In this document: one piece after another, positions 8,746 to 23,275 of the stretch
Position numbering within the stretch: position 1 is the stretch's first letter
Layout: every line of letters starts with the position of its first letter
Source: an uncultured Sulfitobacter sp.
GTDB lineage: Bacteria > Pseudomonadota > Alphaproteobacteria > Rhodobacterales > Rhodobacteraceae
Assembly (NCBI RefSeq): GCF_947497275.1
Contig: NZ_CANMFS010000003.1
Span: 1-64,000 of the forward strand
Length of the DNA: 64,000 bases
Direction: 5' to 3'
Position numbers and translations under genes: made by a program
The notes under the pieces: generated by a model
Databases searched by the model: none
The model's input: only the letters and a program-made list of their open reading frames with translations
Told to the model about the DNA's origin: nothing

Positions 8746-10944
8746 TTACGGATCGGGCAGATCCGGTATGATCTTGTCCAATGTTGCGGGATAGTCGCGC
8801 ACGCGCACCCCGGTTGCGTTGAAGATCGCATTGGTCACCGCCGCGCCGGCGCCTGAAATGCCAAGCTCTCCCACCCCTTTGGATTGGATCGGGTTGGCCC
8901 ATTCATCACGTTCCTCAAAAAACACAACATCAAGTTGCGGCACATCGAGATTCACCGGGACATGGTATTCGGCGAGGTTGTGGTTGACGACATGACCGTC
9001 GCGTTGATCGTGGACCAGGTCCTCGGTCAGCGCCGCCCCGATCCCGAAGATCATGCCGCCGTGGCATTGGGATGTCGCGGTCTGCACGTTAAGGATGCGC
9101 CCCGCCGAAAACACACCCAGCATCCGCCGCACACGGGTTTCGCCCGTCACGGCATTTACCGCAACTTCCGCGAAATGCGCGCCGAAGCCCGCGTGTTGCA
9201 CCACCTCGCTCGTGTCTCCCGGCTCGATATGACCGGTCGCCGTCAGCGTTTCGCTTAAGAGCGCGCTGAGCTTTTTGCGTACGTTGCCGGAAGTCGCCAT
9301 GCCGTCTTTCAAGGTCAGGTCGGATGCCCGTGCGCCAAGCATTTCGGCAACATCGCCGCGTAAGGACTGACAGGCAAGGAACACGGCCGATCCGACAGAG
9401 CTTGCGCCCCATGATCCGCCGGAGCCAGCGCCGGGGGGCAGATCGGTATCACCCAATTTCACAGTGACGTCGTCTAGCGGCAGTCCGAGCAATTCCGCAG
9501 CAATCTGGGCGAGTATTGTATAGGTGCCGGTACCGATGTCCGTCATGTCCGTCTCGACAACCACTGTCGCGTCGGGGTTCAGAATGACGCGCGCCTTTGC
9601 CTCCGACAGGATGTTGCCGCGTGCGGCGGACGCCATGCCGTGCCCGATCAGCCATTCGCCTTCGCGGTTCTGTCCCGGTGTGGCGTTGCGTTTTTCCCAT
9701 CCAAATCGCTGCGCCCCCTCGGTCAGGCAATCCGCAAATCTGCGGGACGAAAATTCCTTGCCGTTTTCGGGGTGGACGTCGGGGATGTTGCGCAAACGCA
9801 AGTCGACGGGATCTATGCCTGTCTCATGAGCCAACTCGTCCATCGCGTTTTCCAGCGCAAGCATCCCGACCGCTTCACCGGGCGCGCGCATGGATCCGGC
9901 ACAGGTGCGGTGAATGCGCGCGATCTGGTGCGAATAGGCACGGTTCTTGCCTGCATAGAGAAAATGGGTGGCGAGAGCGACGGGTTCGCTAAACGCCTCG
10001 CCGGGTAGGTTCGACACGGTCGCGTCGTGGCCAATTGCCGTCAGATTGCCTTGCGCGTCTGCCGCCAGACGCAGCCGCTGGCGGGTGCCGCTGCGGCGCA
10101 TCGTTGTCTCGAATACCTGCGCGCGGGTCATGACTACGCGTACCGGCCGCTCCAGTTCCTTGGCCGCGATTGCAGCAGCCACCGCTTCGGGTGCGATGCC
10201 CAGCTTGGACCCGAATCCGCCACCGACATAGAGGGCCAGAACACGGACGTTTTCAGCGTCGATACCCAAGGCATCCGCGAGCTCATTACGGTTGTATTTA
10301 AGCATCTGGTAGGAGCCATACAGTGTCAGCTTGTCGCCCTCCCACTGCGCCAGGGACGCATGTGGCTCCATCGCCGCACTGTTTTGCGAGGGCGTCGTAT
10401 ACACGGCGTCAACGCTGGCATGGGCCTGTGACATCGCAGCATCTATATCCCCCTGCTCGGTCTGCTTGCCATCAGGCCGGTCAATGACGGCATCGGGATC
10501 GTCCGGATCAGTCGCCCCCGCCTGAGCAGAGTAGCTCACCTGCGCGGATTGTGCCGCGTGCCGGGCCTGTTCGAATGTCTCGGCAACGACAAGCGCGATG
10601 GGTTGTCCGAAATAGGCAACGTCGCGTGGCCCCTGGACCGGAGCTTCGTTTGCGGTGCCTTGCGCGGGGTTGCGCAACAGCCGCTCGTCGGTGATGACCG
10701 CAAGCACACCCGGCATCGCACGCAGCGCCTGTTCGTCGATCTGTGTCACCTTCCCCTTTACGACAGTGGCACGGACCAACACTCCTACAGCTTCGGATCC
10801 GTCCCCGAATTCCGCCGCATATTGCGCCTGCCCGCTGACTTTCAATGGACCGTCCCTGCGCGGTGCCGCAGTGCCCACGATGCCCTGCGCCATGTCGGCA
10901 AGGACATCCGGCTGCTTTGTGTCCATCTTGTGATGTGCGCTCAT
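8746..10944 (-). CDS. Molybdopterin-binding large subunit, xanthine dehydrogenase/aldehyde oxidase family (PaoC/YagR type)
   Basis: This 732-residue catalytic subunit of a molybdenum hydroxylase oxidises an aldehyde or N-heterocycle at Mo-MCD. N-terminal [19 protein letters not shown] and GGGFGSKLG are typical. The active-site glutamate is expected in [15 protein letters not shown] near the C-terminus. Length and motifs are closest to PaoC (YagR) of E. coli periplasmic aldehyde oxidoreductase. The start ATG overlaps the stop of the FAD subunit gene (ATGA). No XdhC/PaoD-type maturation gene is visible next to it, so the chaperone must be elsewhere. The physiological substrate cannot be told from sequence. 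Confidence 0.9.
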
Positions 10945-11924
10945 TGGTTTGTCTCCGTCGCTGTGCGCAGCACGGCCTTGAGCGTGCGGCGGGCAAGTGG
11001 GATCTTGAAATCATTCGCGCCGTAACCGCGCGCATCGGCAAGAAGGATGTCCGCAGCCTTGTCGAACAGCGCGTCGGACGGTCTGTTGCCAATCAACGCA
11101 TCCTCGACAGCGTCGTTGCGCCACGGCTTAGGGGCGACACCGCCAAAGGCCAGCGTCGCGCGGGCAATTTTTCCGTCGTCGATACGGATGACCGCCGCAA
11201 CCGACACGAGCGCGAAGGCGTAGGAGGCCCGGTCGCGGACCTTGCGGTAAATATGCGTGCCCGGTTCTGGTGCAGGCAGCAGAACGGCGGTGATCAGATC
11301 GCCGGGCTTCAGCACCGTTTCGATTTCGGGCGTATCACCGGGCAGACAGTAGAAGTCGCCGAGCGGGATGCGTCTCATATCGCCCGCCGTGTCTTCAACC
11401 TCGACAACGGCGTCCAGCGCCATCATCGCGACAGCCATGTCGGACGGGTGCGTTGCGATGCAGTGCTCGCTCGTCCCCAGAATAGCGAGGATGCGGTTGA
11501 ACCCTTCTCTTGCCTGACATCCACTGCCCGGCTCGCGCTTGTTGCACGGCATAGCTGTGTCATAAAAATAGGCACAGCGCGTGCGTTGCAACAGATTGCC
11601 ACCCGTGGTCGCCTTGTTACGCAACTGTCCCGACGCACCGGCCAAAAGCGCCCGCGACAACACCTCGTACTCCTGCCGTATCCGCCCATGCGCGGCGAGA
11701 TCGCTGTTGCTGACCAATGCACCGATCCGCACGCCACCGTCTTCGGTGTCCGTGATCTGGTGCAACTCAAGCCGGTTGATGTCCACGAGCGCGTCCGGCG
11801 CCATGACCTCAAGTTTCATCAGATCGAGCAGATTTGTTCCGCCTGCGATAATCGTCGCCCCGGTCGCGGCGTGGTGCGTCGCGTCGGTCCGGCTGGCGGC
11901 ACGGGCATATTCAAACTCTTTCAT
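10941..11924 (-). CDS. FAD-binding subunit of the molybdenum hydroxylase (PaoB/YagS type)
   Basis: This 327-residue subunit passes electrons between the Fe-S subunit and an acceptor. The FAD-binding loop is [18 protein letters not shown], and GNLLQRTRC follows. The stretch from QRTRC through [13 protein letters not shown] to SEHC carries the extra cysteines that in PaoB-type subunits bind an additional [4Fe-4S] cluster, which supports a PaoABC-like trimer rather than a canonical XDH. Both ends overlap neighbours by ATGA, so the three subunits are translationally coupled. Confidence 0.9.
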
Positions 11925-12436
11925 GGTGTTTCTCCCTCAGCGGCTTCGCGGATAGCACGCACTATTCCGGGGTACGCGGAGCAACGGCACAGATTGCCGC
12001 TCATTCGCTCGGAGATTTCCGCATCCGACAGCACGACATCCTCAGCCAGCGTCTCGGATACATTCGATGGCCACCCGGCACGGGCTTCTTCAAGCATCGC
12101 AGTCGCCGAACAGATCTGGCCAGCGGTGCAGTAGCCGCACTGAAACCCGTCGTGACGTACGAACGCCTCTTGCAGCGGCGACATTTTCTCCGGAGTGCCG
12201 AGGCCTTCGACGGTGGTAATGTCATCGCCGTCGTGCATGCAGGCCAGCGTCAGACAGGCGTTGATCCGCCGTCCGTTGATCAGCACGGTACAGGCGCCGC
12301 ATTGGCCATGATCGCATCCCTTCTTCGTCCCGGTAAGGTCGAGATGATGGCGCAGCGCATCCAGAAGTGACGTACGCGGATCAGCGTCTATCTCATGCGC
12401 CTCCCCGTTGATCTTGAGCTGAGTCTTCAGAGACAT
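11921..12436 (-). CDS. [2Fe-2S] subunit of the molybdenum hydroxylase (PaoA/YagT type)
   Basis: This 171-residue subunit has the plant-ferredoxin cluster motif [21 protein letters not shown] and the second all-helical [2Fe-2S] motif [10 protein letters not shown] with NLCRCSAY. It is the first gene of the three-gene operon. ATG 12436 gives the normal family start ([19 protein letters not shown]); upstream codons in the same frame do not look like a Tat signal. Unlike E. coli PaoA, which is exported by Tat, this enzyme therefore appears cytoplasmic. Confidence 0.9.
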
Positions 12437-12846
12437 GGATAGGGCCTTTCTGGTAGAAGTGTGCGGGCGTCCGGTGCAGGACGATCGCGTAAGGGATGGA
12501 TCTATCGGCCAAGCGTGACGTTCTTCCGAACGCCGCTGACTTGAGGATTTTTTCGTACGACCGGACGGTGGCAGTGTCCTTGGGTGTTTTGGCAACCGCG
12601 GTGCGACACTTTGAGAACGCTAACCTGCCGCATAAGTTCCCCTTTTGCGCGAGTTGCGGTTTAACCCCCACAGAACGCAGCGACGCTCTGCGTCTGTTGC
12701 CCCTAAGTTGGAGCCTCGGACCGAGATCGGGACACGCACCTCTCAGCTCTGTGACAGAGGGGCCGACTGAATTTTTACCCGCTACGCTTGACCCGGATAC
12801 GCGAGGCCGTAGATCAAGCATCTCGACTTAGAAAATTGGACCCCAC
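12437..12846. other. Intergenic region between divergent molybdenum hydroxylase and pterin-like operons
   Basis: This 410-base gap must hold divergent promoters for both operons. Reading frames of 111 aa (12496-12831, plus) and 142 aa (12393-12821, minus) cross it, but neither matches a family I recognise and each is antisense to the other. I see small imperfect hairpins such as CTCTG-TGA-CAGAG near 12750 and no convincing gene. Confidence 0.5.
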
Positions 12847-13242
12847 ATGTTTGCTGTTGAAGTTCGCGACCACATCATGATTTCGCACTCCCTGCCCTCG
12901 CCCGTCTTCGGCCCCGCTCAGGGCATGCACGGGGCCACATTCGTGGTCGACGCTGCGTTCTATACGGACGATCTTGACGATAACGGGCTGGTCGTCGATA
13001 TCGGGCTCGCTACGGACGCCTTGGCCGCCACGCTTGCGCCCCTGCGGTATTGCAATCTTGACGAGGTACCGGAGTTCGAGGGCAAGATCACGACCACCGA
13101 GTTTCTGTGCCACCATATTTGGGCACAGCTGCGCGATGCCGCGAAATCGCAGGGGATCGGCGACAACGGGCGCCTGCGCCGGATCCGCGTGATGCTGCAC
13201 GAAAGTCACCTCGCACGCGGTTGGTACGAAGCGGATATTTAG
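12847..13242 (+). CDS. 6-pyruvoyl-tetrahydropterin synthase/QueD-like protein (divergent subfamily)
   Basis: This 131-residue T-fold protein resembles PTPS and 6-carboxytetrahydropterin synthase. His14 (ISHSL) and His28 (GMHGATF) match two of the three zinc histidines. The third, normally the second His of HGH, is Ala30, and the catalytic Cys before it is absent (PVFGPAQGMHGA). LVVDIG, NLDEVPEF, TTTEFLCHHIW and the pterin-anchoring glutamate region VMLHESHLARGWYEADI are kept. Pterin or purine-like substrate binding is therefore likely, but standard PTPS or QueD chemistry is doubtful. It opens a seven-gene operon, and the next gene starts one base after its stop. Confidence 0.82.
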   Translation: MFAVEVRDHIMISHSLPSPVFGPAQGMHGATFVVDAAFYTDDLDDNGLVVDIGLATDALAATLAPLRYCNLDEVPEFEGKITTTEFLCHHIWAQLRDAAKSQGIGDNGRLRRIRVMLHESHLARGWYEADI

Positions 13243-13243
13243 G

Positions 13244-14017
13244 GTGGCGTTCTCCGTTGACTGGCTGGCACTGCGTGAGCCTGCGGATATGGCAGCGCGT
13301 GATCGGGATCTGCTCGGGCAAGCGGCGACGATTGCCGCAGGGGGGCTAGCCGTTCTCGACCTTGGCAGCGGCACAGGATCGACCGCGCGGGCTTTCGACG
13401 CGGCGGGCGCGCCAGATCTGAAATGGCGGTTTGTGGACAATGACCCCGCACTGCTGAAAGTTGCGCGCGAAAGCTTTTCTGACAGTGCTCAAATTTTGGG
13501 TGACTTGGGCGACATCGACGCGCTGCCTCTGGACGGGGTCGGATTGGTGACCGCGTCCGCGCTGCTTGATCTGATGCCCCATCACTGGCTTTCGGCGCTT
13601 GCGCACCGCCTGCGTGCCGCGCACATCCCCTTCTATGCCGCACTCAACTATGACGGCAACTTGCTCTGGACGCCCAACCATCCGCAGGATGCAAGCATCA
13701 CGGACGCGTTCAACGCGCATCAACGCGGTGACAAAGGACTTGGCCGCGCGCTTGGACCCGACAGTGGTGTGCAGGCGGCAGCCCAGTTCGATGCGCTGGG
13801 TTTCGACGTCTCTCTGAAGAACAGCCCGTGGAGGATCGGGCCCGGACAGGCCGCGCTGCACAGCGCGCTTCTGGATGGCATTGGCGCCGCCGCCGGCGAG
13901 GCCGGCCATCGCGGCGTACCGGAGTGGACAGCCGCACGCCATGCGGGCGTACACCACAGTCTTTGCGAGGTCGGTCATACCGATCTGTTGGCCATTCCCC
14001 CGGAATACGGCTCATGA
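13244..14017 (+). CDS. Class I SAM-dependent methyltransferase
   Basis: This 257-residue Rossmann methyltransferase has motif I VLDLGSGTGSTARAF at about residues 37-51, an acidic second-strand residue (WRFVDNDPALL), and a post-III region (LVTASALLDLMPHHWL). GTG 13244 is one base after the preceding stop; no other in-frame start fits as well. In this operon it could methylate the pterin or pyrimidine product, or a sugar on it. The substrate is not inferable from sequence. Confidence 0.78.
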   Translation: MAFSVDWLALREPADMAARDRDLLGQAATIAAGGLAVLDLGSGTGSTARAFDAAGAPDLKWRFVDNDPALLKVARESFSDSAQILGDLGDIDALPLDGVGLVTASALLDLMPHHWLSALAHRLRAAHIPFYAALNYDGNLLWTPNHPQDASITDAFNAHQRGDKGLGRALGPDSGVQAAAQFDALGFDVSLKNSPWRIGPGQAALHSALLDGIGAAAGEAGHRGVPEWTAARHAGVHHSLCEVGHTDLLAIPPEYGS

Positions 14018-14117
14018 CATTGCGCGATACTGGGCTATTTCATACCGAAGAATGTTCCAATCGCTGTCCGAATACCGCAGCAGAACGGGTGTTGGCAGTG
14101 GCCTCAGGGAGGGCGAG

Positions 14118-14933
14118 ATGAACCTTGTCGACGTGACACCGAGTGTCTGGGACAGAATTCTGGCAGTGCGCAACGGCAGGGCCTGTTTATGCTGTGGCGC
14201 CTGGTCACCGGGCGAGCGGCGCAGTCTTGCGCTTTACGGAGCACTTGCACAGCCCGATGCCGAAACTAGTGTTGTCGCCCAGATCGGTCAATCGCTCGAC
14301 GGTCGGGTCGCCACGATTTCGGGCGATGCGCAGGATGTCTCCGGTCCCGACGGGCTGGCGCATCTGCACCGCATGCGCGCGCTGTCCGATGCGGTGGTCG
14401 TCGGAGTCAAAACCGCGCTGAAAGATAATCCGCGGCTGACGGTGCGCCTTGCACCGGGTGAAAACTCCGCCCGTGTGGTGATCGACCCGTCCGGCAGGTT
14501 GCCCAACGATACAAGACTGCTAACCTGCGACAATGCCCGGCGGATCGTCATCCAGGCGGTGGACAAGCCGCGGCCCGCCGGTGTCGAAGTGGTCCGGCTG
14601 CCGCGCGGTGACTGGATCGCGCCGGATGCGATCATCTCGGCGCTGCGCGGTCTGGGGCTCAAGAGACTGTTGATCGAAGGTGGCGGTGTCACAATCGCGC
14701 AATTTCTTGAGGCGGACGCGCTGACCCGACTTCACATTGCGGTGGCGCCTGTGCTGATCGGTGCCGGTCCGCAAGGTCTAACTACGACGCCGGTCGCGAC
14801 GCTGGCACAGGCACGCCGGCCCATGACGCAGGCGTATGCACTTGGATCGGACGTTGTTTTCGACTGTGCGCTCACGCCTGCCACATCGCCACGTCCGACC
14901 TGCACCCATTCGGGGTGTACTGCCGAACACTGA
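14118..14933 (+). CDS. RibD C-terminal-type reductase (dihydrofolate reductase-like family)
   Basis: This 271-residue protein has an N-terminal extension of about 60 residues followed by a RibD_C domain: AQIGQSLDGRVAT, SGPDGLAHLHRMRALSDAVV, LKDNPRLTVR, VVIDPSGRLP, LLIEGGGVTIAQFLEA and HIAVAPVLIGAG. RibD reductases use NADPH to reduce the ribosylamino-pyrimidine from GTP cyclohydrolase II to the ribityl form; relatives reduce pterins. The deaminase domain of a full RibD is absent. ATG 14118 is preceded by GGGAGGG. A 100-base gap separates it from the methyltransferase. Beside a GTP cyclohydrolase II-like gene it suggests a riboflavin-pathway-like opening step diverted to another product. Confidence 0.82.
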   Translation: MNLVDVTPSVWDRILAVRNGRACLCCGAWSPGERRSLALYGALAQPDAETSVVAQIGQSLDGRVATISGDAQDVSGPDGLAHLHRMRALSDAVVVGVKTALKDNPRLTVRLAPGENSARVVIDPSGRLPNDTRLLTCDNARRIVIQAVDKPRPAGVEVVRLPRGDWIAPDAIISALRGLGLKRLLIEGGGVTIAQFLEADALTRLHIAVAPVLIGAGPQGLTTTPVATLAQARRPMTQAYALGSDVVFDCALTPATSPRPTCTHSGCTAEH

Positions 14934-14989
14934 CACCTGCGCCGCCTGCCCTACCGCTCGCAAGTGACCGAAAACCGAGGACTGCAAAC

Positions 14990-15520
14990 ATGTCAACACA
15001 GACCGACACGCTCTCGCCCGCGCCGACCGGAAAGGTCGCGCGTTGTGTCACCGATGTGCGCATGGGGTCGCCCTGTGTCTTCGTGTCGGACAGCGACGAC
15101 ACCATTTCGGCAGCGGTCAGAACACTCTCAGACGCCGTGAAGATACTTTCCGCTGCGCGCCAGCCTGTCGTTACGGGCCAGCCTGCCAGCGTAATGTTCT
15201 CGACCGAAGCCGCGAATAACGAGCGATTGCATACATTTCACGAGTTCACCAATGGGGCCGGGGATTTGCCTGACTCTTTAAAATGCGATTGCGGCCCGCA
15301 AAGGCGCGCGGACCTTGGACGGACAGGATCGGAAGGTGCCAGCCTCCGGCGCTACCGCCATCAGGAAGGCCGTGGCAACGGTTTGGCAAACATGATCCGG
15401 GTCTATGTACATCAGGAAAAGTATCTCGACACGGGCAATGCCGATCACCGGTCGGCGCTCGAGGATGATGATGCCTTCGCGCGCGCTGCCAACGCGCAGA
15501 AACACGGAGGAGTCCTGTGA
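14990..15520 (+). CDS. Degenerate GTP cyclohydrolase II (RibA)-like protein, probable decayed gene
   Basis: The 176-residue frame keeps RibA landmarks in order: KVARCVTDVRMGSP at the N-terminus, then SLKCDCGPQ, HQEGRGNGLANMIRVYVHQ and DTGNADHR. The segment between residues 50 and 95 is much shorter than in relatives. The first zinc cysteine (normally SEC-TGD) is replaced by HEF-TNGAGD, and the C-terminal third after LEDDDAFARAANAQKHGG is missing. Two of three zinc cysteines remain. GTP cyclohydrolase II opens the imidazole ring of GTP, and this copy is unlikely to do so unaided. Its stop overlaps the next start (TGATG), so translation through it may still matter. A repurposed binding protein is an alternative to decay. 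Confidence 0.6.
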   Translation: MSTQTDTLSPAPTGKVARCVTDVRMGSPCVFVSDSDDTISAAVRTLSDAVKILSAARQPVVTGQPASVMFSTEAANNERLHTFHEFTNGAGDLPDSLKCDCGPQRRADLGRTGSEGASLRRYRHQEGRGNGLANMIRVYVHQEKYLDTGNADHRSALEDDDAFARAANAQKHGGVL

Positions 15521-16491
15521 TGCAGTTCGATCGCGAAGCACGGGCGCTGTGGATGACCGCCAGAAATAAGGCGGCACTGCGCACAACCCCCTATGACGTC
15601 CCCGATACCCATGTCGTCATCGAAACCATGTTTACGGGCATCAGCAAGGGCACCGAAAAGCTGGTCTTTGAAGGACGCGTGTCGCACGGTGAACACGAGA
15701 CCATGCGCGCGCCTTTTCAGGAGGGAGACTTCTCGTTTCCGGTGAAATATGGATATGCCGCCGTTGGCCGCCTGTTGGACGGTGCCGGTGCGGGTGACAT
15801 CGTGTTTGCTCTTTTCCCCCATCAGGACTACTTCTCAATACCGGTCGAAGCCGCTTTGTCGGTGCCGCCGGACGTCCCGGCCGCGCGCGCCGTGCTGGCC
15901 GCGAATATGGAGACCGCGCTGAACATTCTTTGGGATGCGGGCGTTCAGGCCGGGGACCGTGTGGTTGTCGTCGGCTGCGGCGTCGTGGGGGCGTTGGTGG
16001 GGTATCTCGCCAGACGAATTCCCGGCACCGAGGTGTGTCTGTGCGATATCGACCCGGGGCGCGCGACATTGGCAGACACGCTGGGGTGCAATTTTGCCCT
16101 GCCGGATGAGGCTCCGAATACCGCAGACGTTGTCATCCACGCCTCTGCCACGGCAGCGGGGTTGGCCACCGCGATTGCGCTTGCTGGAGTCGAGGCCACA
16201 GTGGTGGAGGCAAGCTGGTACGGCGAGGGTACCACGCAAGTTCCATTGGGCGGACGGTTTCACCAGCGGCGGTTGCGCCTGCTCAGTTCGCAGGTGGGTC
16301 GCATCCCGCCAAGCCATGCAGCCCGCTGGACCCATCGCCGCAGGCTGCAGGTGGCTTTGTCGCTGTTGGCCGACCCGACGCTCGACGCGCTGATCTCAGG
16401 TGAGACGCGTTTTGAGGAGCTGGCTGTGGCGTATTCTGCTATCCTCGGCGATCCGCAAACCCTGTGTCACAGGGTCCGGTTCGATGACTGA
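15520..16491 (+). CDS. MDR-family (zinc-type alcohol dehydrogenase-like) oxidoreductase
   Basis: This 323-residue medium-chain dehydrogenase/reductase has an N-terminal GroES-like domain (VIETMFTGISKGTEKLVFEGR, FSFPVKYGYAAVGRLLDGA) and a Rossmann nucleotide site (RVVVVGCGVVGALVGYLA). The usual catalytic zinc cysteine is absent, replaced by SKGTE, so it may work as a zinc-independent reductase. The C-terminal LRLLSSQVGRIP is typical of a subgroup often named zinc-binding alcohol dehydrogenase. ATG 15520 has GGAGG nine bases upstream and overlaps the preceding stop. The next gene starts eight bases before its end. Confidence 0.82.
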   Translation: MQFDREARALWMTARNKAALRTTPYDVPDTHVVIETMFTGISKGTEKLVFEGRVSHGEHETMRAPFQEGDFSFPVKYGYAAVGRLLDGAGAGDIVFALFPHQDYFSIPVEAALSVPPDVPAARAVLAANMETALNILWDAGVQAGDRVVVVGCGVVGALVGYLARRIPGTEVCLCDIDPGRATLADTLGCNFALPDEAPNTADVVIHASATAAGLATAIALAGVEATVVEASWYGEGTTQVPLGGRFHQRRLRLLSSQVGRIPPSHAARWTHRRRLQVALSLLADPTLDALISGETRFEELAVAYSAILGDPQTLCHRVRFDD

Positions 16492-17338
16492 TGCCCCCAA
16501 CGATGCGACCACGCCGGTTTTCGACGGCGCCAGCGATACACTGCGCACCATGGTCGATGCGGCGGTCCAGGCCGGTGCGCTATTGGTCGCCGCGTCGCAA
16601 CGCAGAACCGATCTGCGCGTCGATGAAAAATCCGCGGGCGATTTCGTATCAGAGGCGGACCGCAGCGCTGAGGCGCTGATCGCCGATGTTCTGATGGGCG
16701 CCTACCCGGCCTACGGCTGGTTGGGTGAGGAAACGGGCGCGCGCACGGGCCGGAACAGTGATCTGCGCTGGATCGTGGATCCGCTGGACGGGACCACGAA
16801 TTTCCTGCGCGGCCTGCCACATTGGGCGGTGTCCATCGCGCTGTGCCGGGGCGAGGATGTCCTGTGCGCCGTCGTTCATGATCCATCAAAGGCCGAAACC
16901 TTCGTTGCCGAACGCGGCGCAGGCGCACATCTCAATGGACTTCCGATCACGGTGACCAAGGGTATTGCGCTGGATGCCGCGTTGTTCGCGACCGGCGTAC
17001 CGGCGGGCGGGCGCATCACCTATCTGCCCGATTGTCTTGGCGATCTGGAACGGTTGATGCCGAGATCGGCCGGCGTGCGGCGCTGGGGGGCGGCGGCACT
17101 GGATCTCGCCTATGTAGCGGCAGGCCGCTACGACGGCTATTGGGAGCGTAACCTTGGCGCATGGGATGTTGCCGCCGGGATGTTGCTGGTTCAGGAGGCA
17201 GGAGGCCGCATTGCACCGTTGTGGCCGAGTCACAGCGTGCTGTCATCCGGGTCCTTTGTGGCCAGCAACGCCGATCTCGGCGACGCTCTCGCCGCGCAGA
17301 TTGGTCGCCGTTCCGACTGCGAGGGTTGGCATGGCTGA
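16484..17338 (+). CDS. Inositol monophosphatase-family phosphatase
   Basis: This 284-residue metal-dependent phosphatase has all three family motifs: WLGEETG, WIVDPLDGTTNFLRGLPHW and, near the C-terminus, GAWDVAAGMLLVQEAGG. Family members hydrolyse inositol-1-phosphate, PAP, histidinol phosphate or nucleotide phosphates. In this operon it could dephosphorylate a ribityl or inositol intermediate. ATG 16484 overlaps the upstream gene by eight bases. Confidence 0.85.
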   Translation: MTDAPNDATTPVFDGASDTLRTMVDAAVQAGALLVAASQRRTDLRVDEKSAGDFVSEADRSAEALIADVLMGAYPAYGWLGEETGARTGRNSDLRWIVDPLDGTTNFLRGLPHWAVSIALCRGEDVLCAVVHDPSKAETFVAERGAGAHLNGLPITVTKGIALDAALFATGVPAGGRITYLPDCLGDLERLMPRSAGVRRWGAAALDLAYVAAGRYDGYWERNLGAWDVAAGMLLVQEAGGRIAPLWPSHSVLSSGSFVASNADLGDALAAQIGRRSDCEGWHG

Positions 17339-17365
17339 TCGTTTTCACGCATTTCAAGGACTGAC

Positions 17366-18421
17366 ATGACCGGAACTCTCGTCTTTGCCGTCCCCGGCGA
17401 CATCCAGACACGCACCGGCGGATATCTATATGATCTCAAGCTGATGAACGCGCTTTGCGCGCTTGGCGTCGACGTGCGCCATATCGCGCTGGGAGACACC
17501 TTTCCCGCGCCGACACGCGCACACGCCACATCTGCCCTCGCGCAGTTGCAATCACTTCCCCCAGAGGACGCAGCCCTGGTGGACGGACTGGCGTATGGTG
17601 CGCTGGATACGGACGGTCTACGCGATGTGCGCGCGCCTCTTTTTGCACTGGTGCATCACCCGCTGGCGCTTGAAAGCGGCCTTGAGGCCGGTCTGGCCGA
17701 TGCAATGGCTGCGCGCGAACGGGCCAATCTGGCGCTGGCGCGGCATATTTTCGTGACCAGTCCGCATACCGGCGGAATCCTTTCGCAGCATTACGAGATT
17801 TCGCCCGACCGGGTCACCGTGGTGCGGCCCGGTTTCGACCCCGTCGCCGAAATTGACACTGCCGCAAAGGACACGCCGCCGCTTATCCTGTCCGTCGGGA
17901 TCCTGGCGCAGCGCAAAGGGCACGACATCCTGCTGCGGGCGTTATCACGGCTGGGCGATCTGCCGTGGCAGGCCGATATTGTCGGGCGCGAACACGAGCC
18001 GGGCATGAACGCACGTCTTTCGGCACAGATCAGGGATCTGGACCTGCGCGAGCGTGTTCGCCTGTCGGGTGAGATCTCAGACGCCGCACTCGAAAGCCGC
18101 TACCGGCGCGCGACACTGTTCGCGCTTGCCACCCGCTACGAGGGCTATGGCATCGTGTTCGGCGAAGCGATGGCGTACGGGCTGCCCATCGTGTCGACGC
18201 GTGTCGGCGCAGTGCCGGAGACTGTCGCCAAGGGCGCCGGGATGCTGGTGCCCGCGGACGATCCCGAAGCTTTTGCCGGGGCGCTGAGGCGTCTTTTGAC
18301 AGATGCCAAGGCCCGCGAGACCTGCACACGGGCCAGTTTCGCGGCGGGTCAGGCACTTGCGGGTTGGTCCGATGCGGCGGCACTGGTGCGTGACCGGCTG
18401 CCGCTATCTACCGCGCCCTGA
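17366..18421 (+). CDS. Glycosyltransferase family 4
   Basis: This 351-residue GT-B enzyme starts FAVPGDIQTRTGGYLYDLKLM, with the Gly-rich acceptor loop. It has LILSVGILAQRKGHDILLRAL at the start of the donor-binding half and the EX7E region YEGYGIVFGEAMAYGLPIVS, followed by GAVPETVAKGAGMLVP. It should transfer a sugar from a nucleotide-sugar donor with retention of configuration. As last gene of the pterin-like operon it suggests the final product is glycosylated. Its 3' end overlaps the convergent flippase-like gene by 18 bp. Confidence 0.87.
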   Translation: MTGTLVFAVPGDIQTRTGGYLYDLKLMNALCALGVDVRHIALGDTFPAPTRAHATSALAQLQSLPPEDAALVDGLAYGALDTDGLRDVRAPLFALVHHPLALESGLEAGLADAMAARERANLALARHIFVTSPHTGGILSQHYEISPDRVTVVRPGFDPVAEIDTAAKDTPPLILSVGILAQRKGHDILLRALSRLGDLPWQADIVGREHEPGMNARLSAQIRDLDLRERVRLSGEISDAALESRYRRATLFALATRYEGYGIVFGEAMAYGLPIVSTRVGAVPETVAKGAGMLVPADDPEAFAGALRRLLTDAKARETCTRASFAAGQALAGWSDAAALVRDRLPLSTAP

Positions 18422-19351
18422 AGACGCGGTGGAAGCCGCAGTAGCGATCCCTTGACTTGGGTACGCAGCAAGCGTCAAAAGGCCGGGCACACTTGCGATC
18501 AACAGCGCAAGACCATAGGCCACACCCGCCGCAACCCCCGCCTCGGCTCCCGCGCCGATGATCGGGAAAAGCGCCGCAGCTGCTCCTTCGCGCAGGCCCC
18601 ATCCGCCGACCGAAACCGGGATCATCATTGCGCTGAGGATCAGGGGCACAAGGACCAGCGCCGCTTCGACGGACATCACGGTACCGGTTCCACGGGCAGC
18701 GGCCCAGAACGCAAGGACCATCAACAGCGCAATCACCAGCGACAGCGCCAGTTGCCGCCCGATTACGTCAGGGGCCAACAACGCCGTCCCGAGCGCGTTC
18801 ACGAAGCGGCGCAACGGCCCGACGAACCGCGCCAAGATCGCGATGCCTGCCCCCAGAATACCGAGACAAACACTGCCCCAAAGCGCGCCGCGCACCAGCC
18901 AACCGGGCCAGTCGACACCCCCTGGCAGCAGCGCCAGCACCGCACCGCCCAACAAGACAAGCGCCACGGCCGCCTGCCCCGCGAGACGCTCGATCATCAC
19001 CGCATGGGCGGAACCGCTCAGCCCGCCCGCGCCGCGCGGGGCGCGGACAGCACGCCCCGCATCACCAAGCACACCGCCCGGCAGGCAAAGGTTCACGAGC
19101 TGCGACAGGTAGTATTCGCGCACCGCAAAACCAATGCCGAACATGGCCCCCAGACTGCGCGCCGTGATCTGCCAGCGCCACGCCATCAGGACGGTCATCA
19201 GCGTAAAACAGGCGACTGACACGGACAGCCAGCGCAGGTCCGTTTCCAGCAGACGGTGGTAGGTAGCAGACGGATCCACGCTCCAGAACAACGCGGCCAA
19301 AAGCGCCAGAGACACCGCCAACCGCAGCAGATATTCGCGCCACCGGGTCAC
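18404..19351 (-). CDS. Flippase-like / lysylphosphatidylglycerol synthase transmembrane-domain protein
   Basis: This protein of about 315 residues is largely transmembrane (LLRLAVSLALLAALFWSV, then LVIALLMVLAFWA and LVLVPLILSAMMIPVSVGGWG). The SVGGWGLREGA segment and the LCLPGGVLGDAGRAVR loop are characteristic of the UPF0104/AglD/MprF-N family, proposed lipid or isoprenoid-sugar flippases. GTG 19351 overlaps the preceding stop (GTGA). It is the last gene of the minus-strand membrane operon. Confidence 0.8.
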   Translation of the reverse strand: MTRWREYLLRLAVSLALLAALFWSVDPSATYHRLLETDLRWLSVSVACFTLMTVLMAWRWQITARSLGAMFGIGFAVREYYLSQLVNLCLPGGVLGDAGRAVRAPRGAGGLSGSAHAVMIERLAGQAAVALVLLGGAVLALLPGGVDWPGWLVRGALWGSVCLGILGAGIAILARFVGPLRRFVNALGTALLAPDVIGRQLALSLVIALLMVLAFWAAARGTGTVMSVEAALVLVPLILSAMMIPVSVGGWGLREGAAAALFPIIGAGAEAGVAAGVAYGLALLIASVPGLLTLAAYPSQGIATAASTASSGRGR

Positions 19352-20979
19352 GATGCGTCCGCCATGCGTGACAGGGTGCTGTAGGCGCGGATGAACCGGT
19401 CGCGGAAATCCTCCATCGGCCAGACCGGTGTATCCGCCTGCGGGACCATCCCGTCCTGCCACTCCCATCCGTCGGCCTGAGCAATCAGGTCGGGCGGCCC
19501 GATCAGGTGCACGGCCACATCACGGCTGTCGCTCCCTGCGACAAAACCGGCAGGCTGGTGATCCCCGAGGATAACAAACAGCGGCAGGTCATCGCGGCGC
19601 GCGGCGTAGGCAGTCGCGGCTTTGAGGGAATAGTCGACCGCCAGACGGTACTGATCGCGCACACGGTCACGGTCGCGCCAGACTGCGGCCGGTGTATCGC
19701 CCGATGCTGCAATCTCGTTGAACACCGTGCCGTCGCCCACATCGGCCCAGTCGATCATCCGGGGTACAGGGACCCAGGGTGCGTGCGACGAGATGAGCGC
19801 GATCTGAAGGAAATCGGGCCGCGGATCGGGCGGCAGCAGCGCCGCGTAGGCCGACAACGTGTATTGATCCGGCATCGTGACCCAGTTGAACGGAAGTCCG
19901 GCATAGCCCAGATCATCCGCAGCGAGGATGGTATCGAAGCCCATCGTCAGCCCTTCGGGCCAGGCCAGTGTGATTGCGGGCATGACAGCCGCCGTGCGAA
20001 ATCCGGACGCCTGTGCGAGGTGGAACAGACTTTGTCGGCCGGAGGCCAGCATGGCGCCATAGCGCCCTTGATCGGTGGTGCGCAGACCAGAACCCAAGGT
20101 GCCGTGCGCCAGCCAGCTTTGCCCGCCGGCGGTGGGTGAGTTCAGCCACCCGCTGCGCATTGCGTAGCCCGCGCCCGACAACTCCGCCTCTGCGCGTCCC
20201 AGCGTCCCGACATGCGTTGGCGCGTAGAGAGGATTGTCAAAACTCGTTTTGCCATAGCTCTCGATATATATGACGACGATATCACGCCCGCCGGTCCGGT
20301 CGAAAAGCGCGGATTGGCCCTTGTAGGGATCGCGTGCCGCGGCCGTGCGAAACAGCCGCAATTCTGACAGGGCATCCCGACCACGCGTGATCTGTGCTGC
20401 GGCCAGAACGGCATTCGAGGCGGAACCGGGCGGCTCCACCGGTATGCTCCATATCCCCCGTGCTTTACCATAATCCGCAAGGGCAAGGATCACCGCTCCG
20501 GCAAACACTGCACCTGTCGCCAAGCGCGCGCGGGGCGAGAGAGGGTGCCTCGTGATCCTGCGCAGGGCAAGGTATACCGCGAATGTCAGGGTGCAAAACG
20601 CAACAAAACCAAGGCTCGCCGCGATCCACGCGGCAACCGGCCCGATGCTGCCGGATACCACGTCAAACCCGGCCCGTATCAGAAACATGTCGACCACAGG
20701 GCTGAACGGTCGGTTGAGCGCCGACAGCATTGCGAAATCACCGATCTTGAGAAGTACGATGAGCATCAGGGCAAAGGTAATGCATGCACTTAACGCGGCA
20801 CCAACACGCCAATGCGGCGGCACCACGACAAGCCCCGACACGAGCACCACCCACTCCAACGGAAACGTCAGGGCTGCGTCTGACAGATCGCGGGGCGATG
20901 CGGGCAACACCAGCAGGACGTACAGCAACATTGCGCCAGCCGCTGCCGCGATACAGGCCCGCATGCGTGATCGATTCAT
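19348..20979 (-). CDS. Membrane sulfatase / LTA-synthase-like phosphotransferase
   Basis: This 543-residue protein has several N-terminal transmembrane segments (AAAAGAMLLYVLLVLP, WVVLVSGLVVV, ACITFALMLIVLLKIG and others) followed by a sulfatase/alkaline-phosphatase-fold domain from about residue 230. Metal-site elements are DIVVIYIESYGK and VILGDHQPAGFV; the nucleophile region is NSPTAGGQSWLAHGTL. Lipoteichoic-acid synthase and phosphoethanolamine or phosphoglycerol transferases share this architecture, so transfer of a phospho-alcohol head group at the periplasmic face is the best guess. ATG 20979 overlaps the CDP-alcohol transferase stop by ATGA. Upstream in-frame codons belong to a shadow frame of that gene. 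Confidence 0.78.
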   Translation of the reverse strand: MNRSRMRACIAAAAGAMLLYVLLVLPASPRDLSDAALTFPLEWVVLVSGLVVVPPHWRVGAALSACITFALMLIVLLKIGDFAMLSALNRPFSPVVDMFLIRAGFDVVSGSIGPVAAWIAASLGFVAFCTLTFAVYLALRRITRHPLSPRARLATGAVFAGAVILALADYGKARGIWSIPVEPPGSASNAVLAAAQITRGRDALSELRLFRTAAARDPYKGQSALFDRTGGRDIVVIYIESYGKTSFDNPLYAPTHVGTLGRAEAELSGAGYAMRSGWLNSPTAGGQSWLAHGTLGSGLRTTDQGRYGAMLASGRQSLFHLAQASGFRTAAVMPAITLAWPEGLTMGFDTILAADDLGYAGLPFNWVTMPDQYTLSAYAALLPPDPRPDFLQIALISSHAPWVPVPRMIDWADVGDGTVFNEIAASGDTPAAVWRDRDRVRDQYRLAVDYSLKAATAYAARRDDLPLFVILGDHQPAGFVAGSDSRDVAVHLIGPPDLIAQADGWEWQDGMVPQADTPVWPMEDFRDRFIRAYSTLSRMADAS

Positions 20980-21758
20980 CGTTGCCGCGCCAGATACCGG
21001 ATGTCGCGCCCGAACGACCACACAAGCAGGGCCGCGGCACCCAGCGCGATTGCGCGGGCGGTCTGATCGGTGAACACGGGCAGCAGCAGGAGGCAAAGCG
21101 CCCCGATCTGGATGACGCACACAACCTTGCGGCCAAGGCGATCCGGCAGAGGCGCGCGCAGCCACCCCAAAAGGAACCCTGCCGCCAGAAAGGCGTAGCG
21201 GCTGAACCCGAGGATCAAAAGCTCGGGCCCGGCGCGCTCCGAAACCAGAAGCACGAGGGCAAGCATGCAGGCCAGTCCGGCATCGACTTCCATATCGAAC
21301 CGGGCACCGTAGGCCGAGGGTACGCTTTGATGGCGCGCAAGCCATCCATCCAGACCGTCGAGCGCGAGCGCGGATGCTGCGACGGCGAAAATCGCCAGCC
21401 CTGCGCGGTCCAGCAGGGTCTGGTCGACCAACGCCACCGCCAGCGAACAGACGAGTGCAAGGCGAAAGAGCGTTACGGCGTTGGGACTGCCGTAAACATC
21501 TCGTGGATACCCCAGAGGTGCCATCGCGTATAGCGATGCCGCGGCAGCGCAGGCATATAAAGCAAAAGCGATCGCTGGTGCAGCGATCCCGCCTGCCGGA
21601 TCGAGCAGACGCACAAGAACAACCACACCGACAGCAAAAAACGCCGCGAGCAGCGCCCCCTGCGCCTGGGCGCGCGACATATGCCACCAAGCCAGCACGG
21701 TAGGTCTGAAGGTAAAATGATTCCCGGTTCTCATCTCTACAGATTTAGCGTTCAACAT
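20976..21758 (-). CDS. CDP-alcohol phosphatidyltransferase family protein
   Basis: This 260-residue membrane enzyme has the complete CDP-alcohol phosphotransferase motif, DGLDGWLAR then GARFDMEVD (D-x2-DG-x2-AR-x8-G-x3-D-x3-D), and about seven hydrophobic helices. It should join an alcohol or alcohol phosphate to a CDP-activated partner to make a phosphodiester lipid or lipid precursor. In-frame starts occur at 21758, 21734 and 21680; the first is used without strong ribosome-site support. It is coupled to the sulfatase-like gene. Confidence 0.8.
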   Translation of the reverse strand: MLNAKSVEMRTGNHFTFRPTVLAWWHMSRAQAQGALLAAFFAVGVVVLVRLLDPAGGIAAPAIAFALYACAAAASLYAMAPLGYPRDVYGSPNAVTLFRLALVCSLAVALVDQTLLDRAGLAIFAVAASALALDGLDGWLARHQSVPSAYGARFDMEVDAGLACMLALVLLVSERAGPELLILGFSRYAFLAAGFLLGWLRAPLPDRLGRKVVCVIQIGALCLLLLPVFTDQTARAIALGAAALLVWSFGRDIRYLARQR

Positions 21759-21787
21759 CCGATTTCAAGACAGCGTACATCACAACG

Positions 21788-22453
21788 TCACACGCGGCTG
21801 TGCCCCGAGGGAACAGCGCAGATGCGCGCCACCAAGGGCCGGTGGTCCGACGCCGCGCGAATGGCGGGACTGTCGAGCGCGGCAAGCCCGGTCGGCCCGG
21901 TCGCATCGTCCGTCAAGATCCGGTCCAGCGGCAACACCGGGCGCCGCACGGGAAAGCTGGCCACAGCGCCACCGCGCAGCGTGCTGCCGAAGAACCGTCG
22001 CGAGAGCGCGAGACCGCCCCAGGGCCGCCACTCGTTCAGATCACCCAGCAGCAAGGTACGCATTTTTGGTCGCCGCGCGATGTACTGTCCCAAGGTGCGC
22101 ATCTGCACCGCGCGCAGCCCCTGAAGAAGCGACAGATGCGTTGCAATAATGCGCAGATCATGACCGTTGCGGCGGACCTCCGCCACCACGGCACCGCGCG
22201 GATAATGTCCCGGCAGATCAATCAATGCGCGTGTGCGCACCTCGAACGCGGGATGCAGATACAGCACTGTTCCGAGAAAGCCGTGGCTTTGCGCGCCCCA
22301 TCGGGCATCGGTCGGGCGATGTAACCAGTCCAGTCCTGTCGCTGCCTCGATCCGGTGCGGATCGATCAGACCGTCATAGGGCGGCTGCTCACCGTCCGCT
22401 TCTTGCAGGGCAAGAATATCGGGCCGTGTCGCCGCGATCTCGTTGGCGATCAC
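21788..22453 (-). CDS. Endonuclease/exonuclease/phosphatase-family protein with unclear 5' end
   Basis: The protein has the DNase I-like fold motifs DILALQEAD, THLSLLQGLRAVQM, LLLGDLNEW and a C-terminal SDHRPLVA. Family members cleave phosphodiesters in nucleic acids, inositol phosphates or lipids. The first in-frame start is GTG 22453, but the conserved first strand ATWNVHRA is encoded upstream at 22496-22519 in the same frame, and no ATG, GTG, TTG or CTG occurs in frame before the stop at 22601-22603. The 5' end is therefore damaged, misread or uses an unusual start. It precedes the CDP-alcohol transferase gene by about 30 bases. Confidence 0.7.
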   Translation of the reverse strand: MIANEIAATRPDILALQEADGEQPPYDGLIDPHRIEAATGLDWLHRPTDARWGAQSHGFLGTVLYLHPAFEVRTRALIDLPGHYPRGAVVAEVRRNGHDLRIIATHLSLLQGLRAVQMRTLGQYIARRPKMRTLLLGDLNEWRPWGGLALSRRFFGSTLRGGAVASFPVRRPVLPLDRILTDDATGPTGLAALDSPAIRAASDHRPLVARICAVPSGHSRV

Positions 22454-22690
22454 CCGTTCAATTCTTTGCGGATCGACCCTAGTGTCGCCGCCACGCGCAC
22501 GGTGGACGTTCCATGTCGCGCACCCGTAGGTAGACCGTGCTTGATGTTCGATGGCGGATATCCTCCGGGGATGCTTTACCGGATGTATTCCGCATACGGC
22601 TCACCCGCGCAAGGCGGGCATCGTATCGCTTGCCGCAAAGAAATTTTCGCTTAGACTTCAGGTCTCACCCCTCTGCGAAAGGATCCGCCT

Positions 22691-23275
22691 GTGACACGCT
22701 TTTTTCCTTCGGCCGCTCTCGCCCTCTCACTTGCCCTTCCCGCGCAAGCAGAGCCGCTCAGATACGAGCTTGATCCGGCCCACACCACAGTCGCTTTCAC
22801 GATCCAGCATCTCGGCTACGCCGACACGCTGGGGCTTTTCGGCGAGGTTTCGGGCGGCTTTACCTACGACATGGAGACGCAGCAGCTGTCGGACGTCAGC
22901 GTCACTGTCGCTGCAGACAGCATCACAACCCTGAACGAGGCCCGCGACGATCATGTGCGCGGGAATGATTTTCTCGGCGTCCAGGATCATCCAACAATCA
23001 CCTTCACCGCCGATAGCGGCACGGCGCGCAGTGACACTGCAGGCACCGTCAAGGGCGAAGTCACCATTCTCGGACAAACCCGTCCCCTCGCACTCGATGT
23101 CGAACTTGCGGGCCAAGGTCCCTATCCTTTCGGGCACAAACGCTTTGTCCTTGGCGTATCGGCGCGCGGCAGTCTGATGCGCAGTGATTTCGGTATGAAC
23201 TACGGTGTCGACAACGGACTTGTCGGGGACGAGGTGCAGATATTGATCGAGACAGAAGCGATGCAGGTAGAGTGA
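22691..23275 (+). CDS. YceI-family periplasmic protein
   Basis: This 194-residue protein has a signal peptide (FFPSAALALSLALPAQA) and the YceI lipocalin-like fold: YELDPAHTTVAFTIQHLGYA, HVRGNDFLGVQDHPTITF, GEVTILGQTRPLALDV and SDFGMNYG. YceI proteins bind isoprenoid or lipid ligands in the periplasm. GTG 22691 is preceded by AAAGGA. It stands alone between two minus-strand blocks. Confidence 0.85.
   Translation: MTRFFPSAALALSLALPAQAEPLRYELDPAHTTVAFTIQHLGYADTLGLFGEVSGGFTYDMETQQLSDVSVTVAADSITTLNEARDDHVRGNDFLGVQDHPTITFTADSGTARSDTAGTVKGEVTILGQTRPLALDVELAGQGPYPFGHKRFVLGVSARGSLMRSDFGMNYGVDNGLVGDEVQILIETEAMQVE

Follow-up and report, generated by a model that had tools for sequence, protein, structure and literature searches.

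What do two convergent gene sets of an uncultured Sulfitobacter sp. make, and do they make it together? The sets lie in the first 64,000 nucleotides of contig NZ_CANMFS010000003.1 (assembly GCF_947497275.1; positions 1-64,000, forward strand), the whole of which we call the window. One set, on the plus strand, encodes soluble enzymes, namely a PTPS-like protein, a methyltransferase (MT), a stand-alone RibD_C reductase, a RibA-like protein, an MDR-type oxidoreductase, an inositol-monophosphatase-family phosphatase (IMPase) and a GT4 glycosyltransferase; it runs into a minus-strand set made up of a flippase-like LPG_synthase_TM protein (LPGTM), a sulfatase-superfamily enzyme (SULF), a CDP-alcohol phosphatidyltransferase (CDPA) and an endonuclease/exonuclease/phosphatase-family protein (EEP). 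A preliminary description of the locus proposed that the soluble enzymes make and glycosylate a GTP-derived compound, which the membrane enzymes attach or export through a phosphodiester lipid. The analysis presented here points to a pathway that is real, widespread and uncharacterised: from GTP, the gene set probably produces a small compound of pyrimidine or pterin kind that carries a sugar and is handed to envelope enzymes. The joint function of the two halves is well supported and the GTP-pyrimidine origin reasonably so; for the fuller claim, a single envelope-directed pathway in which a GTP-derived glycosylated unit is linked to lipid or glucan, we judge the balance to be even.

The set is not a chance assembly, since each gene has homologues elsewhere in syntenic order, and its core is frequent: at least 571 matching stretches were confirmed in named genomes, and 31 of 296 actinobacterial genomes drawn as a sample also match, some through distant relatives only (12 loci were inspected). 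All counts out of 80 given here refer to the best 80 loci of the named-genome scan, read with at most 10 kb of flank per side (full flanks in 53); several records come from metagenome bins and may be mislabelled. Similar neighbourhoods, which the preliminary description suggested for other alphaproteobacteria, were found there and beyond, the core of MDR, PTPS, GT4 and MT, often with RibD_C and RibA, occurring in alpha-, beta- and gammaproteobacteria and in Actinomycetota. PTPS is present in 80 of the 80 loci, MDR and MT in 75 each, GT4 in 70, RibD_C in 55, an FkbM-type gene in 36, an OpgH-like gene and cytochrome b561 in 32 each, CDPA and RibA in 31 each, SULF in 27, LPGTM in 25, IMPase in just 14 and EEP in 3. 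CDPA, SULF and LPGTM occur together in 22; any of them is found in 33 and either they or an OpgH-like gene in 63, while CDPA and SULF share a locus with an OpgH-like gene in just 2. Five Streptomyces-like loci (so called because their PTPS is 83-93% identical to the S. fungicidicus query) read CDPA / MDR-PTPS-GT4-MT-LPGTM / creatininase / RibA, and a further actinobacterium, L159, has nine genes: SULF, CDPA, MDR, PTPS, GT4, MT, LPGTM, RibA and RibD_C. The divergent actinobacteria L162-L164 keep RibD_C-MDR-PTPS-GT4, L160 has only MDR-PTPS-GT4, and L161, a contig of just 3.8 kb, holds RibA, RibD_C, LPGTM, GT4 and a partial PTPS. The core also stands on plasmid records of Streptomyces fungicidicus, Microbacterium, Agrobacterium, Thiodictyon, Palleronia and Methylosinus. 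In a 1.5-Mb bin with the actinobacterial label Aquiluna, a 748-kb contig has a version of the cluster that resembles those of Rhodobacterales (L045 and L165, one locus), which reflects either recent transfer or mis-binning.

The proposed co-occurrence of the two halves holds, CDPA and SULF lying within about 10 kb of PTPS in 26 of the 80 loci and in the actinobacterium L159. L032 reads in a single direction EEP, CDPA, SULF, LPGTM, GT4, PTPS, MT, RibD_C, RibA, MDR, and in L019, L020, L038, L042, L043 and L049 CDPA, SULF and PTPS likewise share one direction. Among 149 genomes of the same family, CDPA and SULF match in the identical 20, and MDR matches strongly in 13 and weakly in 2. SULF is found in 6 of the 13 MDR genomes versus 14 of the 136 others (Fisher p 0.0026, or p 0.0063 with the two weak MDR matches counted), p values in this study assuming independent genomes, which genomes are not. 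The halves lie within 10 kb in four of the six genomes with both (the window, L018, L019 and L020) and on separate contigs in G063 and G118. The weak MDR matches L029 and L030 were excluded from later comparisons, and L026 (MDR, PTPS not found) from the comparison of conserved frames.

The 14 genomes with a SULF match and no MDR match, which we term membrane-only and which are thus defined by the MDR search, show what may stand in for the soluble half. In thirteen, an ABC importer lies within or next to the membrane module (10 of NMT1/THI5 type, 3 of MalE type); the remaining one is a 3.5-kb contig, and in L131 the importer lies past opgG-opgH. Within the stretches read, such an importer occurs in only one of the six genomes with both MDR and SULF (G063, its permease split in two frames by the gene call), a contrast with p 0.0005 when the short-contig genome G147 is dropped. 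In membrane-only modules NMT1/THI5-type importers sit between the flippase-like gene and GT4 (L129:10280-14688, L126:1980-6391 and others), and GT4 is present in eight membrane-only stretches, all with an NMT1-type importer. A tree built from 107 GT4 rows (rows under 270 aa excluded) groups these eight with the window GT4 in a 26-row clade of support 1.0, together with two from the detached modules of G063 and G118, L032, and 14 in which GT4 does not adjoin PTPS (L045 and L165 being both counted); branching within the clade is weak, 0.51-0.54 at both nodes checked. Since the GT4s of makers and importers share one clade, the GT4 step seems common to both. The compound itself seems to be made or imported, depending on the genome. 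The window has an ABC system of its own, oligopeptide-type by appearance, about 4 kb past EEP, which was not counted as an importer.

How GTP would be opened is less direct than first proposed, for although the RibA-like gene is present in the window, its product looks from its sequence like a decayed remnant, dead as an enzyme. It is 176 aa long versus 369 aa in L017 and 368 aa in L018, covers just positions 49-121 of the 165 of PF00925, is missing a long segment of its N-terminal half, the segment that would hold the first zinc Cys and some 50 residues close to the C terminus, and is 40% identical in its best part to the RibA of L031, versus 62-84% for its neighbours (PTPS 84, MT 62, RibD_C 78, MDR 72, IMPase 76 and GT4 68%). 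In an alignment with 37 other cluster RibAs (E. coli numbering via 2bz0), its residue 54 is N and its residue 128 is A; C54, C65 and C67, which we take to be the zinc ligands, and D126 and R128, presumably also functional, are kept in all 36 others that reach these positions, L103 ending at a contig edge. Given the two substitutions and the deletions, we reject a working RibA in the window on sequence grounds, so that GTP opening would have to come from the two other GTP cyclohydrolase II (GCH II) matches of the genome.

The remaining RibAs suggest which intermediate is formed. On the INTERMEDIATE question, RibA residue 105 (E. coli numbering) is Met in 7 and Tyr in 36 of the 43 cluster RibAs that extend to this site. 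All seven Met105 RibAs adjoin a strong creatininase-family match, and 35 of the 36 Tyr105 RibAs have no creatininase in the available stretch; for 7 of these 35, a contig end is less than 3 kb away. The Met-type S. coelicolor enzyme SCO6655 reportedly stops at the formylamino compound, and ArfB, of the creatininase family, removes the formyl group in archaea; if these activities hold here, both RibA versions end at 2,5-diamino-6-ribosylamino-4(3H)-pyrimidinone 5'-phosphate. This is the likely intermediate, and would be the expected substrate of an archaeal-type RibD_C. The window RibD_C is of that type, having a RibD_C domain without a deaminase and being closest to archaeal-type reductases (TIGR01508 E 1.1e-28, under the model's cut-off; nearest PDB entries 6p8c and 2azn). 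A second RibD_C match in the genome lies at C1:196021, in a 423-aa frame.

The window PTPS is the sole PF01242 match in its genome, and a single-sequence PDB search with it returned SCO6650 (3d7j) as the sole match (E 6e-34). Compared with human and rat PTPS and E. coli QueD, it has substitutions at the catalytic Cys, at the third zinc His of HGH and at the Asp-His pair: the Cys of FGKC in the human and rat enzymes, which we take to be catalytic, aligns with the Ala of FGPAQ (residues 21-25), and the canonical PLDHKNLD with PLRYxNLD. HGA takes the place of HGH in 11 of 11 aligned cluster PTPS proteins and, like FGPAQ, stands in 80 of the 80 loci, a uniformity that is partly selection because FGPAQ was one of the two patterns used to find PTPS loci and HG was itself part of the search pattern. 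On these replacements we reject a queuosine or biopterin role; they set the protein apart from canonical PTPS and QueD on all three features, so that the earlier premise of a PTPS fold acting on pterins may not extend to it; it has instead the marks of PTPS-IV, namely FGPAQ with PF00925 (a remnant here) and PF01872 neighbours. Cluster genes carry queuosine and riboflavin names in annotations and are very probably neither. The distant actinobacterial relatives L162-L164 read FGPA[AST] with HGH, still beside RibD_C, MDR and GT4. A second context for the PTPS family is given by lone relatives on Streptomyces plasmid records, L112:12001-12399 and L119:12001-12426, which lie among cupin, MBL-fold and MEKHLA genes and were excluded from the cluster counts.

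For the MDR protein, the TIGR01202 bchC match is far under its cut-off, and an alignment of 11 sequences has zero invariant Cys, so that classical zinc chemistry is not expected of it. The membrane enzymes have kept their motifs. E240, S288, D473 and H474 are invariant in 22 of 22 SULF sequences, and these residues, whose meaning we assume from the superfamily, are as expected of an active sulfatase-superfamily phosphotransferase, which SULF would be. In CDPA, D134, D137, G138, R142, G151, D155 and D159 are invariant in 14 sequences from two phyla, giving D-x2-D-G-x2-[AS]-R-x8-G-x3-D-x3-D with one Ala to Ser change among the 14; this agrees with what we take to be the motif of CDP-alcohol phosphotransferases, D-x2-D-G-x2-A-R-x8-9-G-x3-D-x3-D, and places CDPA among them. 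A PDB search by sequence gave no match for SULF or CDPA. EEP has homologues at 54-55% identity in L032 and L033, and an EEP-family member of the same module, in L126, matches PF03372. The window EEP frame is open far upstream, with no ATG, GTG or TTG near the conserved N terminus; a non-standard or lost start codon is possible.

On the observed gene content, linkage, residue losses, GT4 clade and make-or-import pattern we place an inferred product, lipid attachment, fate and chemistry, as follows. GCH II would open GTP to the diaminopyrimidinone named above, many relatives using their own RibA and the window genome relying on other GCH II genes. Stand-alone RibD_C, judging from its family, would reduce the ribosyl group to ribityl and, carrying out no deamination, leave the 2-amino group in place. 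The zinc-free MDR, the T-fold PTPS-IV protein and the methyltransferase could then yield a methylated pyrimidine- or pterin-like unit, to which GT4 would add a sugar and from which the IMPase-family enzyme may take off a phosphate. CDPA, the flippase-like protein and the sulfatase-fold phosphotransferase would form a phosphodiester link, placing the product in the membrane or periplasm, on lipid or glucan, and relatives without the soluble half would take the compound up through ABC transporters. The enzyme set thus fits the GTP-derived, glycosylated soluble product first proposed, though the PTPS may not act on pterins and the local RibA looks dead, and the co-occurring membrane set fits attachment or export, with a glucan or other envelope acceptor equally open beside lipid. 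More tentatively, and as a possibility we ourselves find somewhat doubtful, the product may be a previously unknown envelope conjugate made by bacteria of two phyla, a methylated, glycosylated, GTP-derived pyrimidine or pterin joined by a phosphodiester to lipid or glucan and flipped outward. It would perhaps be a surface-anchored redox or light-absorbing group, an idea raised because cytochrome b561 genes occur in 32 of the 80 loci. Some relatives, unable to make the conjugate, would acquire it from neighbours.

A number of observations weigh against a single pathway of this kind. By its sequence the PTPS protein is without known catalytic residues, so any role given to it is guesswork. The search found no RibA in 49 and no RibD_C in 25 of the 80 loci, and among the seven Streptomyces-type loci RibD_C is present in L120 and was not found in L111 and L154-L158. 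The creatininase pattern has a counter-example in L070, a Tyr105 RibA whose neighbour matches creatininase weakly (98 bits), counts the seven creatininase-free Tyr rows close to contig ends, and may be one event, because all Met-type RibAs are Streptomyces-like. In 15.5 kb, L018 shows MDR, RibA and GT4 with no PTPS, MT or RibD_C. The import pattern is blurred by G063, which has the soluble half and an importer together, by the three MalE-type modules, with no GT4 in the stretch read, and by the importer binding protein, whose closest solved relatives, thiamin-pyrimidine binders included, match only at E 1e-7 to 1e-6. Finally, 14 of the 20 SULF genomes have no MDR match, 8 of the 20 have OpgG or OpgH next to the membrane module, 53 of the 80 loci yielded no SULF, and 32 of the 80 have an OpgH-like GT2 beside the core. 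Because it is so often without MDR and beside OpgG/OpgH, the membrane module may serve glucans, and the same four counts favour two independent neighbours: a soluble set whose glycosylated pyrimidine or pterin stays free, serving as cofactor, signal or protectant, and a CDPA-SULF-LPGTM module that decorates periplasmic glucans with an OpgB-like phospho-substituent, their proximity stemming from a shared envelope role or regulation. We regard this as unlikely, if with some weight, since CDPA and LPGTM are linked to the core in the actinobacteria L111, L116, L120 and L154-L159 (actinobacteria are not known to have this periplasmic-glucan system), the GT4s of both arrangements form one clade, importers replace the soluble half, OpgG is nearby in only 1 of the 80 soluble-core loci, and second OpgH-like copies (G101 and G083; 8 genomes searched) are 35-36% identical to the L022 query. 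One possible identity for the OpgH-like GT2 near MDR, present at L022:5346-7202 and across the 32 loci with such a gene, is that of a dedicated glycan synthase.

The remaining alternatives turn on single enzymes. An inositol-type glycophospholipid, in which CDPA would make a phosphatidyl-polyol phosphate, IMPase dephosphorylate it and a PimA/MshA-like GT4 mannosylate it, the GTP-derived genes being unrelated riboflavin helpers, would explain why CDPA weakly matches models of PIP synthase and archaetidylinositol phosphate synthase and why GT4 matches MshA and Pim structures; yet IMPase occurs in 14 of 80 loci versus near-universal PTPS, MDR and MT, and the minimal actinobacterial form, RibD_C-MDR-PTPS-GT4, shows neither CDPA nor IMPase within 15 kb (L162-L164), which makes this improbable. 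About as improbable is a glycosylated tetrahydropterin of cyanopterin or limipterin kind, made from dihydroneopterin triphosphate via a PTPS-like step. GT4 does share its fold with the tetrahydrobiopterin glucosyltransferase 5zer, but the match (E 3e-4) is weaker than to many other GT4s and nonspecific, so that GT4 was rejected as a tetrahydropterin glucosyltransferase, and the PTPS protein, lacking the catalytic Cys, one zinc His and the Asp-His pair, has GCH II and RibD_C as its conserved partners. Synthesis of an F420 or deazaflavin-type cofactor, finally, follows from a remark in PMC5041015, given there as unpublished data, that assigns PTPS-IV to archaeal F420 synthesis, and CofD and CofH are indeed present in all three actinobacterial cluster genomes tested. 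For proteobacteria a scan of 13 MDR-bearing genomes taken as such leads us to reject the role, with CofD in none and CofH in none above cut-off (G150 matches weakly, 19.3 bits), and as an account of the cluster we consider it very remote.

The genes named in the preliminary description, with their strands and order, were recovered by frame calls and by a Pfam scan of 10 window proteins at curated cut-offs, EEP standing outside that scan (Table 1), as was the overlap of the convergent GT4 and flippase-like genes by 18 bp (18404-18421).

Table 1. Genes of the two convergent sets, with window coordinates
Feature	Position	Strand	Evidence
PTPS-IV-type T-fold protein, signature FGPAQ...HGA	12847..13242	+	PF01242 71.5 bits
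Class I SAM-dependent methyltransferase	13244..14017	+	PF13649 (Methyltransf_25) 30.8 bits; family in 75/80 loci
Stand-alone RibD_C reductase, no deaminase domain	14118..14933	+	PF01872 E 1.2e-35
Apparently decayed GTP cyclohydrolase II (RibA) remnant	14990..15520	+	GTP_cyclohydro2 (PF00925) over cut-off
MDR-type oxidoreductase, BchC-like	15520..16491	+	no Pfam cut-off passed; TIGR01202 bchC E 1.8e-12
Inositol-monophosphatase-family phosphatase (IMPase)	16484..17338	+	PF00459 (Inositol_P) E 1e-54
GT4 glycosyltransferase	17366..18421	+	PF00534 (Glycos_transf_1) E 6.2e-33
Flippase-like LPG_synthase_TM membrane protein	18404..19351	-	PF03706 E 9.4e-32
Membrane sulfatase/LtaS-superfamily enzyme	19348..20979	-	PF00884 25.8 bits vs cut-off 25
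CDP-alcohol phosphatidyltransferase	20976..21758	-	PF01066 (CDP-OH_P_transf) E 5.5e-13
Endonuclease/exonuclease/phosphatase-family protein (EEP)	21788..~22534	-	frame reading; homologues in L032, L033

Gene spacing is suggestive of two transcription units: PTPS is separated from MT by 1 bp and IMPase from GT4 by 27 bp, RibA overlaps MDR and MDR overlaps IMPase, and 4-bp overlaps join LPGTM to SULF and SULF to CDPA. The MT-RibD_C gap (14018-14117, about 100 bp) is nearly missing in L017. Directly upstream of PTPS, 8746-12595 on the minus strand holds three genes that by sequence reading resemble the large, FAD and iron-sulfur subunits of a molybdenum hydroxylase of the xanthine/CO dehydrogenase type. 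A YceI-family gene (22691-23275) adjoins EEP, and YceI is near the cluster also in L019, L032, L034, L038 and L136. Among unlabelled conserved frames, the 9 of 45 components viewed (first 12 rows each) were mostly opposite-strand shadows of known genes and otherwise general ABC-transporter frames, and a search for near-identical DNA on plasmids found none.

The claim that no characterised pathway has this gene set stands in so far as a literature search, confined to open-licence papers, found no report that identifies the product, and needs the amendment that the neighbourhood of FGPAQ, PF00925 and PF01872 is in print, in PMC5445326. What appears to be new is the full anatomy of the cluster, along with its make-or-import pattern and the link between Met105 and creatininase, none of which was found in the open-licence literature. 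Together the likely intermediate, the make-or-import pattern and the proposed envelope destination name the mutants, the label and the fractions by which the product can be found, and identifying it would also settle the function of the PTPS-IV subfamily.

Among the closest known systems is the PTPS-IV neighbourhood of PMC5445326 (AGeNNT cluster-node 62), where FGPAQ marks the subfamily, PF00925 and PF01872 are its neighbours and its function is given as unsettled. The window shares all three features; the text on PTPS-IV in that paper makes no mention of an MDR, a GT4, a methyltransferase, a CDP-alcohol transferase, a flippase, a sulfatase or a product, and labels PF00925 as FolE2/GTP cyclohydrolase I, the family being actually GCH II. 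Phosphoglycerol transferases of the OpgB/LtaS type are, like SULF, membrane enzymes of the sulfatase superfamily, and OpgG/OpgH are adjacent in 8 of the 20 SULF genomes; SULF is barely over the Pfam cut-off and has no PDB match by sequence, and the window genome, unlike those adjacent cases, has its opgC-opgG-opgH about 350 kb away. The archaeal-type 2,5-diamino-6-ribosylamino-pyrimidinone 5'-phosphate reductases (2azn, 6p8c) likewise consist of RibD_C alone without a deaminase, from which the window protein, a bacterial paralogue, differs by an extra N terminus of about 50 residues. Toxoflavin clusters bring together GCH II, a RibD-type enzyme and a methyltransferase, a likeness pointed out in the preliminary description, and the window adds to these the T-fold protein, MDR, GT4 and the membrane enzymes. 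SCO6650 of Streptomyces coelicolor, reportedly without zinc and without PTPS activity, resembles the window PTPS by sequence, and the same core stands in Streptomyces records and in Streptomyces-like genomes, where the loci differ from the window in having added a creatininase and a Met-type RibA.

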